Shown one piece after another: positions 29,901-49,555 of a DNA stretch of 64,000 nt (positions within the stretch are counted from its first letter, which is position 1; the number at the start of each line of letters is the position of its first letter). Position numbers and translations under genes: made by a program. The notes under the pieces were generated by a model. That model saw only the letters and a program-made list of their open reading frames with translations, was not told the DNA's origin and made no database searches. This stretch comes from Leptolyngbya sp. NIES-2104 (lineage in GTDB: Bacteria > Cyanobacteriota > Cyanobacteriia > Leptolyngbyales > Leptolyngbyaceae). The stretch spans positions 4,092,001 through 4,156,000 of the forward strand of contig NZ_BBWW01000001.1 of NCBI RefSeq assembly GCF_001485215.1, given 5' to 3'.

Positions 29901-29924
29901 ACAAAAGTTTTTCAACTGAATATC

Positions 29925-30056
29925 CAAACCAAAGACAGCGGGTGTGAGTTTTTCACTTAATGTCCTGCCGAGGTTTGATTTTTGCAAGACACAGCTTTTT
30001 GTGTTCTCAAGAAATCATGCGAACTCGGCTTTTCACAAGGTCGAGTTTTTTGTTTT
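29925..30056 (+). promoter_or_regulatory. Ribosomal protein L10 leader of rplJ-rplL
   Basis: The sequence matches the known L10 leader: a closing stem CAAACC (29925-29930) / GGTTTG (29972-29977) around the kink-turn element AAAGACAGCGGG and TCCTGCCGA, the mimic of the L10(L12) binding site on 23S rRNA. A second hairpin (ACACA / TGTGT) and a terminator follow before rplJ. Excess L10(L12) complex would bind and lower expression of both genes. Confidence 0.85.
30021..30056 (+). terminator. Attenuator-like terminator within the L10 leader
   Basis: AACTCG (30022-30027) pairs with CGAGTT (30042-30047) and is followed by TTTTTTGTTTTT. It ends 40 bp before rplJ, so it probably attenuates read-through from rplA into rplJ-rplL. 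Confidence 0.65.
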
Positions 30057-30096
30057 TGGATATTCTCATTCGTCCCAAATCAGGAGGTGAGAAAGA

Positions 30097-48675: not shown

Positions 48676-48708
48676 ACCGTCTCTTTCTCCGGTATGATAA
48701 ACACAGTT

Positions 48709-48811
48709 TGAAGGGGAGTAGCTGCTGACTGGTTCAGCCCGCTTGAATCAACATACTGGCGATGAGCCTGGTTCAAGCGACAAAGACACATCTTTGTAAG
48801 CGAGACTTTCA
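48709..48811 (+). promoter_or_regulatory. yybP-ykoY manganese riboswitch aptamer
   Basis: The P1 stem is TGAAGG (48709-48714) / CTTTCA (48806-48811). The conserved GGGGAGTAGC lies right after the 5' strand, and AAGCGAGAC right before the 3' strand; these are the consensus boxes of the Mn2+-sensing yybP-ykoY RNA. A TATGAT -10 box at 48693-48698 places the transcript start near 48705. The gene downstream is a Mn exporter of the GDT1 family, an established target. Confidence 0.85.
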
Positions 48812-48829
48812 CGAAGTTCACGAATTGGC

Positions 48830-48904
48830 GTGAGCTTGGTGGAGTCTTTTAACTCTCCAACATCAAGCTCACCTCAGTTCATCTCTATACCGATCTGAGG
48901 AGAG
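48830..48904 (+). promoter_or_regulatory. Expression platform of the Mn riboswitch with SD-sequestering hairpin
   Basis: A large hairpin (GTGAGCTTG 48830-48838 / CAAGCTCAC 48864-48872) is followed by CCTCAG (48872-48877), which pairs with CTGAGG (48895-48900) of the Shine-Dalgarno region. No T run follows either hairpin. This points to control of translation, not of termination. How the aptamer switches the SD hairpin is inferred. Confidence 0.6.
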
Positions 48905-48907
48905 CAT

Positions 48908-49555
48908 ATGTTAGCAGCATTTACGGCAGGTTTGTTACTAATCACTGTGTCAGAGTTGGGCGATAAAACGTTCTTTATCGCCATGTGTCTGGCAATGCGT
49001 CATTCACGCCGATATGTTTTCCTCGGATCGATCTTAGCCTTGGCAGCGATGACCCTTCTTTCTGTCGTCATTGGGCAGTTCGCAACGTTTTTGCCAAAAC
49101 AGGTGATTCACTATGGAACGATTCTGCTGTTCATCGTGTTCGGTTTCAAAATGCTCTACGATGCCAGCAAAATGTCGATCGCATGCCGAGAAAAATCTTT
49201 AGTTACAAGTACAGATTGTGCTTCTGATGCGGAACGAGAAGCCCTCGAAGCCGTTTCGCAAGCGGAAGGGAATCTGCGGAAAAAGACACCGTTTGCGATT
49301 TCCTTGGAGGCTTTTACGCTGACCTTTATCGCGGAATGGGGCGATCGGACTCAAATTAATACCATGGTTCTCGCTGCGTCTAATCATGCGATCGGGGTTA
49401 CGATCGGCTCAATTGTGGGTCATGCGATTTGTTGTGCGATCGCGGTCTTCGGAGGTCGCCTCATCGCGTCTCACATCTCAGAACGAACGGTCACACTCTT
49501 AGGCGGAATCCTATTCTTCGTGTTCGCGCTCGTTACCTGGTTTGAGAAGGTATAG
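48908..49555 (+). CDS. TMEM165/GDT1 family manganese exporter (Mnx-like)
   Basis: The 215 residues have six transmembrane segments and two family motifs ExGD(K/R)T: SELGDKTFF (Glu16, Asp19) and AEWGDRTQI (about residue 140). A charged loop with a run of Glu and Lys (about 87-125) joins the halves. Cyanobacterial Mnx moves Mn2+ from the cytoplasm across the thylakoid membrane, towards photosystem II and away from toxic build-up. The Mn riboswitch upstream supports this role. Confidence 0.9.
   Translation: MLAAFTAGLLLITVSELGDKTFFIAMCLAMRHSRRYVFLGSILALAAMTLLSVVIGQFATFLPKQVIHYGTILLFIVFGFKMLYDASKMSIACREKSLVTSTDCASDAEREALEAVSQAEGNLRKKTPFAISLEAFTLTFIAEWGDRTQINTMVLAASNHAIGVTIGSIVGHAICCAIAVFGGRLIASHISERTVTLLGGILFFVFALVTWFEKV

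Follow-up and report, generated by a model that had tools for sequence, protein, structure and literature searches.

We found, before a gene for a GDT1-family exporter in Leptolyngbya sp. NIES-2104, a leader that is very likely a yybP-ykoY-type Mn2+ riboswitch with a cyanobacterial translational platform, turning on the manganese exporter at high Mn2+. The elements, mutually exclusive helices, covariation, spread and gene context on which this reading is based were all observed in the present analysis. From the conserved aptamer, published work on the Xanthomonas P1.1 helix and the association with two exporter families, we infer that Mn2+ is bound; the direction of the switch is inferred as well, as is a decision that would fall during transcription, before the Shine–Dalgarno (SD) sequence is made. 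In plain terms, a manganese-sensing RNA probably stands before the exporter gene, with a four-strand switch that admits the ribosome only when manganese is plentiful. Manganese is required by cyanobacteria for photosystem II and toxic to them in excess, and the four-strand platform is common to many of these organisms (143 of 291 genomes of the class, as matched by R1, a model of the platform alone that does not include the aptamer).

Aptamer and regulated gene

The window, that is, the whole 64,000-nucleotide stretch of DNA analyzed, contains the following elements of the leader and its gene:

48693–48698, + strand: −10-like box TATGAT, 20 nt before GGGG
48709–48811, + strand: predicted Mn riboswitch aptamer (RF00080, 34.0 bits at 48701–48797; fold)
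48709–48714/48806–48811, + strand: P1, with pairs TA, GC, AT, AT, GU and GC
48713–48722, + strand: L1 GGGGAGTAGC, facing GCGAGAC at 48800–48806
48724–48728/48734–48738, + strand: P2 (predicted fold)
48740–48749/48770–48779, + strand: P3 (predicted fold), with L3 AACATACT at 48750–48757
48780–48786/48791–48797, + strand: P4 (predicted fold)
48807–48821, + strand: platform strand 1, its 5′ part being the 3′ strand of P1; pairs with strand 2
48830–48844, + strand: platform strand 2, partner of strand 1 (OFF) or strand 3 (ON)
48861–48877, + strand: platform strand 3; 48861–48872 pairs with strand 2 (ON) and 48868–48877 is the anti-SD (OFF)
48895–48904, + strand: platform strand 4, CTGAGGAGAG, containing the SD sequence GAGGAG at 48897–48902
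48908–49555, + strand: regulated gene, GDT1/UPF0016 (Mnx-type) cation/proton antiporter (ORF, 215 aa; PF01169)

A permissive scan in a 601-base search matched RF00080 with an E value of 1.3e-7, while an Rfam scan at the gathering score misses the aptamer, its 34.0 bits standing against a cut-off of 45. The features that define the class are present in part. Both the L1 motif GGGGAGUAGC and the L3 motif AACAUACU are conserved and in the correct order, the P1 switch helix and P2, P3 and P4 are given by the predicted fold, and the downstream genes belong to Mn homeostasis (GDT1 in the window, GDT1 and MntP in relatives); the curated gathering score of 45 bits is reached neither in the window nor in any of the 291 class genomes. 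Judged from its sequence, this is a Mn-riboswitch-type aptamer of a divergent cyanobacterial form and not a member of RF00080 as curated. The region 48693–48930 folds with z = −5.3, none of 200 shuffles being equally good.

Among 101 distinct cyanobacterial platforms assembled as described below, 56, the window included, carry a match to TATAAT at five or six of its six positions starting 19–22 nt before GGGG, compared with 1 to 4 of the 101 when any of six other intervals of equal width was examined. No −35 consensus was seen at the leader. The predicted transcript start lies at about 48705, so that the mRNA would carry the aptamer at its 5′ end. The gene itself begins with the ATG at 48908, and a Pfam scan matched its product to PF01169 in two stretches (E = 2.1e-46). 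It is preceded by a MazG-domain gene and followed by a convergent tRNA-Val. Elsewhere in the window, positions 29911–30061 (+ strand) hold an ordinary ribosomal protein L10 leader (RF00557, 69 bits).

A four-strand platform between aptamer and start codon

The platform consists of four strands in line, of which 1:2, 2:3 and 3:4 can each pair, adjacent helices being mutually exclusive. Helix 1:2 spans 15 positions with 14 pairs and one G·G mismatch (48813/48838), and 2:3 is a long hairpin of 12 pairs (48830–48841/48861–48872). Helix 3:4 joins the anti-SD CCTCAG (48872–48877) to CTGAGG on the SD side (48895–48900), and this duplex can extend further, with 48868–48870 pairing to 48902–48904 (C–G, U–A, C–G). 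GAGGAG ends five bases upstream of the ATG. When the partner strand was shuffled, the window duplexes were matched by 1 (1:2), 2 (2:3) and 0 (3:4) of 2,000 shuffles.

An earlier note on this DNA had read it as a Mn riboswitch with translational control of a Mn-induced exporter. The aptamer, P1, the boxes GGGGAGTAGC and GCGAGAC, the long hairpin, CCTCAG and CTGAGG all lie where that note placed them, and conservation, covariation and gene context support its reading in kind; its mechanism is incomplete. The note had the hairpin and the anti-SD share the single base 48872, a contact that would give no link to Mn, but the overlap comprises five bases (48868–48872). It also took the hairpin and CCTCAG for the entire platform and overlooked the linking helix of 48807–48821 with 48830–48844. 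Because this helix 1:2 takes up the 3′ strand of P1 together with the 5′ arm of the hairpin, it would couple the platform to the aptamer and so to Mn.

The sequence bears out the absence of a T-run terminator: no T-run follows the hairpin in the window leader, and the longest run in the platform 3′ part (from base 60) is at most four in 95 of the 101 platforms. An intrinsic-terminator riboswitch was rejected because a T-run behind the hairpin is missing in the window and in most platforms. The hairpin region also matched mir-1017 (E = 0.46 and 3.3), which was dismissed as chance.

Signs of selection on the platform helices

Loci from GDT1 and RF00080 searches yielded the 101 distinct platforms, the window’s own included. 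Duplicates were excluded, and so were matches that had no GDT1 motif in range and 13 loci without a motif match (L015, L023, L025, L052, L090, L091, L100, L101, L103, L115, L122, L125 and L126), in a screen that covered all loci then in the set except L001–L003. Six of these 13 (L090, L091, L100, L101, L103 and L115) have, by eye, a switch before GDT1 and come from genomes matched by R1, yet stand outside the 101; in L052, L122, L125 and L126, visual inspection found none, and their RF00080 matches probably arose by chance. Since all 101 platforms were picked by the L1, L3 and GAGAC motifs, the conservation of these three elements is partly a product of selection, which applies to the almost invariant L1 and to L3, which reads AACATACT in 86 of the 101. 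At the P1 pair 48713/48807, GC occurs in 83 platforms, AU in 12 and GU, as in the window, in 6. Conservation of the leader extends far beyond the aptamer.

We compared the duplex energy of cognate strands with that of permuted partners in 100 of the 101 platforms, one having failed the strand-2 pattern. Mean cognate energy gave z = −11.8 for 1:2, −13.3 for 2:3, −11.1 for 3:4 and −4.0 for P1, values inflated by kinship among the sequences; the control pairings 1:4 and 1:3, drawn from the same related sequences, gave z = +3.9 and −0.6. Against dissimilar partners, the mean gain of the cognate was 2.9 (1:2), 4.2 (2:3), 3.1 (3:4) and 0.7 kcal/mol (P1), and for P1 only a fraction of 0.47 of the dissimilar partners was worse than the cognate. 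Compared with shuffled partner strands, z fell below −2 in 100 (1:2), 95 (2:3) and 66 (3:4) of 100 sequences.

Pairs were counted in an alignment, A1, of 55 of the 101 platforms hand-picked for spread; because of this selectivity, families whose strands are shifted (L067, L072, L093 and L113, for example) lie outside the pair counts and within the swap test. Helix 1:2, the only one to overlap P1, was the best conserved of the three platform helices, with 98.5% of cells paired and 19 double-changed cells (5.7 in shuffles), for example UA to CG in 15 platforms at alignment columns 19/38. Helix 2:3 had 93.3% of cells paired and 17 double-changed cells (5.2 in shuffles), and 3:4 had 73.2% and 43 (22.0 in shuffles). 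Each of the three exceeded every slid version of itself in cells paired. Of 500 shuffles, 70 attained the value of 3:4 for pairs changed on both sides and 47 its value for additional pair types, two of the five measures used, and sliding this helix by one column gave 36 double-changed cells compared with 43 and an equal number of pair types. Going by these counts, 3:4 is the weakest helix and its compensatory changes are the least convincing. Start codons were assigned by rule, in some cases probably wrongly (L024, L029, L036 and L037 are examples), and such errors weaken the 3:4 signal. The CCTCAG/CTGAGG pairing, on whose conservation the earlier note had let its proposal depend, is retained in relatives, usually as CTCAG/CTGAG plus an extension, with compensatory changes and less strictly than the other helices.

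Distribution among cyanobacteria

A GDT1 homologue was detected at E ≤ 1e-20 in 47 of 58 genomes searched, and of the 30 loci first taken, the window’s included, 27 had the L1 and L3 motifs ahead of GDT1. RF00080 matched 108 of the 291 class genomes at E ≤ 0.01 and none above the gathering score; all of these aptamers score below that cut-off and are missed by a search that applies it. R1 matched its 143 genomes at E ≤ 0.001. In a draw from the phylum, which overlaps in genomes with the class draw, it matched 35 of 194 genomes, all 35 within the class. Among the R1 matches listed, 37 loci lay outside both the R1 alignment and the RF00080 list, a few of them close kin of sequences in R1; L1 followed by L3 was present upstream in 33 and a GDT1 motif downstream in 36. 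Such L1–L3 pairs occurred in 393 of 20,000 random background stretches, an overestimate because the background contained real sites. Proteins of PF01169, short ones included, were present in 285 of the 291 class genomes, which makes the switch common but not universal, and the 148 genomes without an R1 match indicate that many cyanobacteria manage without it.

Scanning genome contigs for the pattern of strands 1 and 2 returned at least 118 loci, 80 of them listed, and all 80 listed loci have cyanobacterial titles, including Nostoc, Anabaena, Scytonema, Oscillatoria, Microcoleus, Pseudanabaena, Leptolyngbya and Synechocystis salina; in S. salina LEGE 00031, the switch precedes a Mnx-type gene. 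Aptamer motifs lay upstream in 79 of the 80 listed loci (113 of the at least 118), the exception, L178, having a GDT1 motif and no recognized aptamer. The motif E-x-G-D-K-T or a similar one followed within 420 bases in 72 of the 80 (107 of the at least 118). Seven of the eight listed loci without an E-x-G-D-K-T-type motif were scanned with Pfam. L143, L157, L159 and L175 proved to encode GDT1 proteins of an E-L-P-D-K-T type, and L194 has the same opening sequence as L175. L199 and L179, the latter from Pseudanabaena biceps O153 on a record titled plasmid, carry switch and platform before MntP-family genes (PF02659), and the presence of MntP genes under the same switch supports Mn as the ligand.

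Several loci depart from this arrangement. In L211, the switch is followed by a 56-codon open frame without a Pfam match, which by eye resembles an alcohol-dehydrogenase-type start; here and in L310, the gene may have been disrupted or the switch displaced. L078 has the aptamer motifs twice, at 164 and 1296, 1.1 kb apart, with the second copy preceding GDT1. Three GDT1 genes that lack the riboswitch (L015, L023 and L025, from genomes G029, G030 and G021) share the motif TCTCATAGTTNNNTCATYTTC shortly upstream. Across the 291 class genomes, only these three sites match TCTCATAGTTNNNTCATYTTC without mismatch, with six more elsewhere at one mismatch, and a protein may bind at this motif, which would then stand in for the riboswitch.

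Folding and proposed mechanism

We propose that the OFF state combines 1:2 with 3:4 and the ON state P1 with 2:3. At low Mn, strand 1, which comprises most of the P1 3′ strand and the next ten bases, would pair with strand 2, acting here as the invader of P1; strand 3 would stay free, and its anti-SD would hold the SD sequence in strand 4. With Mn bound, docking of L1 and L3 would stabilize P1 and keep strand 1 in the aptamer, so that strand 2 would form the long hairpin with strand 3 and the SD sequence would be free.

In a model that includes neither tertiary docking nor Mn, the window leader without ligand had 1:2 and 3:4 in its minimum-energy fold, with an SD unpaired probability of 0.14. 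Enforcing P1 and 2:3 raised this value to 0.41, at −71.8 compared with −86.6 kcal/mol for the free fold. Shielding was modeled for the 99 platforms that passed into these folds. In transcripts ending before the SD sequence, shielding seven P1-side bases increased the number with 2:3 above 0.5 from 29 to 98; 2:3 rose by more than 0.3 in 72 of the transcripts and dropped by as much in none. In full-length leaders with the P1 side shielded, 2:3 gained more than 0.1 in 65, and the SD sequence opened by more than 0.1 in only 28, stayed within 0.1 in 69 and became less open in 2. The finished leader favors OFF at equilibrium, so ON probably needs cotranscriptional folding; either the ribosome would bind before the leader refolds, making the choice a kinetic one, or the part of strand 1 shielded by docking would be larger than that in P1. 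The pre-SD transcript of the window prefers 2:3 with or without shielding, and its switch must therefore depend on events at the appearance of the SD sequence, the weakest step of the mechanism.

A more specific proposal, which could equally well hold or fail, is that P1 guards a toehold. With P1 in place, strand 3 would be able to start pairing on the distal half of strand 2 and drive strand 1 off it ahead of SD synthesis; when P1 is not formed, strand 2 would be fully paired and the SD sequence caught. The device would then be a main sensor of Mn excess in many cyanobacteria, serving two exporter families (GDT1 and MntP) and overlooked as its aptamer falls below the Rfam cut-off.

Alternative explanations

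Action on the transcript instead of on translation, by premature termination or by access of Rho or RNase, appears unlikely. A sequestered ribosome-binding site could also expose the mRNA to decay. In addition, the Xanthomonas aptamer is treated as a transcription antitermination switch in the available part of PMC6754395. Against such a route speak the missing terminator T-run in the window and in nearly all platforms (95 of 101 with runs of at most four), a last helix that covers the SD sequence and whose two strands covary, and the mnx mRNA of Synechocystis PCC 6803, which, in the accessible text of PMC11649195, stays unchanged under Mn excess, as translational control predicts.

That the structured leader responds to another divalent ion or in a mixed manner, and not chiefly to Mn2+, is very unlikely, although none of the 291 genomes searched gives an Rfam score up to the gathering cut-off. 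The nearly invariant L1 and the L3 shared by 86 of the 101 platforms, albeit in a motif-chosen set, argue for Mn2+, as do the downstream exporters GDT1, a divalent cation/proton antiporter, and MntP, a putative manganese efflux pump. Least probable is a switch of two parts, in which the long hairpin competes with the CCTCAG anti-SD at base 48872 and helix 1:2 plays no role. Both of its elements, 2:3 and 3:4, are supported, but they overlap by five bases and not one, and the helix it omits is the best conserved and the sole one to overlap P1.

Comparison with known systems

Neither the yybP-ykoY aptamer class nor Mn-induced exporters are new. The portions available of a review on GDT1 assign 328 of 333 strains a UPF0016 gene under yybP-ykoY (PMC7380456), a count that may already contain cyanobacterial cases, and those of PMC3766115 report yybP-ykoY in more than 75% of taxonomic groups, Cyanobacteria being one group. 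We found no description of a cyanobacterial Mn riboswitch in the available text of the literature searched, a metagenome survey (PMC2211319) included, and no mention of a riboswitch at Synechocystis mnx in the excerpts of PMC7020235 and PMC11649195. In these excerpts, the former, a 2019 review, regards ManS/ManR as the only reliably identified transcriptional control of cyanobacterial Mn homeostasis, and the latter, a 2024 study, contrasts the riboswitches of heterotrophs with scant cyanobacterial knowledge and names only ManS/ManR. Because the aptamer class is known and cyanobacterial cases may be counted already, we limit our claim to the variant: what appears new is the union of the known sensor with a translational platform, below the Rfam cut-off and, among the 80 listed titles, in cyanobacteria only.

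If true, a Mn switch that acts on translation and is conserved upstream of the exporter gene would explain the Mn-independent mnx mRNA; the gene in question, Synechocystis mnx (sll0615, UPF0016), encodes a member of the same exporter family as the window gene. The case also exposes a group of sequences lying under a curated Rfam cut-off, and as a natural four-strand RNA device it could serve as a useful model and as a Mn sensor part.

With the RF00080 yybP-ykoY aptamer, the window leader shares the L1 and L3 motifs, GAGAC at the 3′ side of L1, the order of P2–P4 and a downstream Mn exporter; it differs in scoring 34 bits against a gathering score of 45, which 0 of the 291 class genomes reach. 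The leader of Escherichia coli mntP is a translational Mn riboswitch. There, as here, the bases from GAGACC on pair downstream (duplex −16.6 kcal/mol) and P1 would be taken apart, whereas, compared by eye and without alignment, its sequence bears no likeness to the four-strand cyanobacterial one. Single-molecule work on the Mn riboswitch of Xanthomonas oryzae, in the part available, describes Mn2+ as stabilizing the switch helix P1.1 and hindering strand invasion (PMC6754395); the competitor is a terminator there and a four-strand, SD-sequestering platform here.
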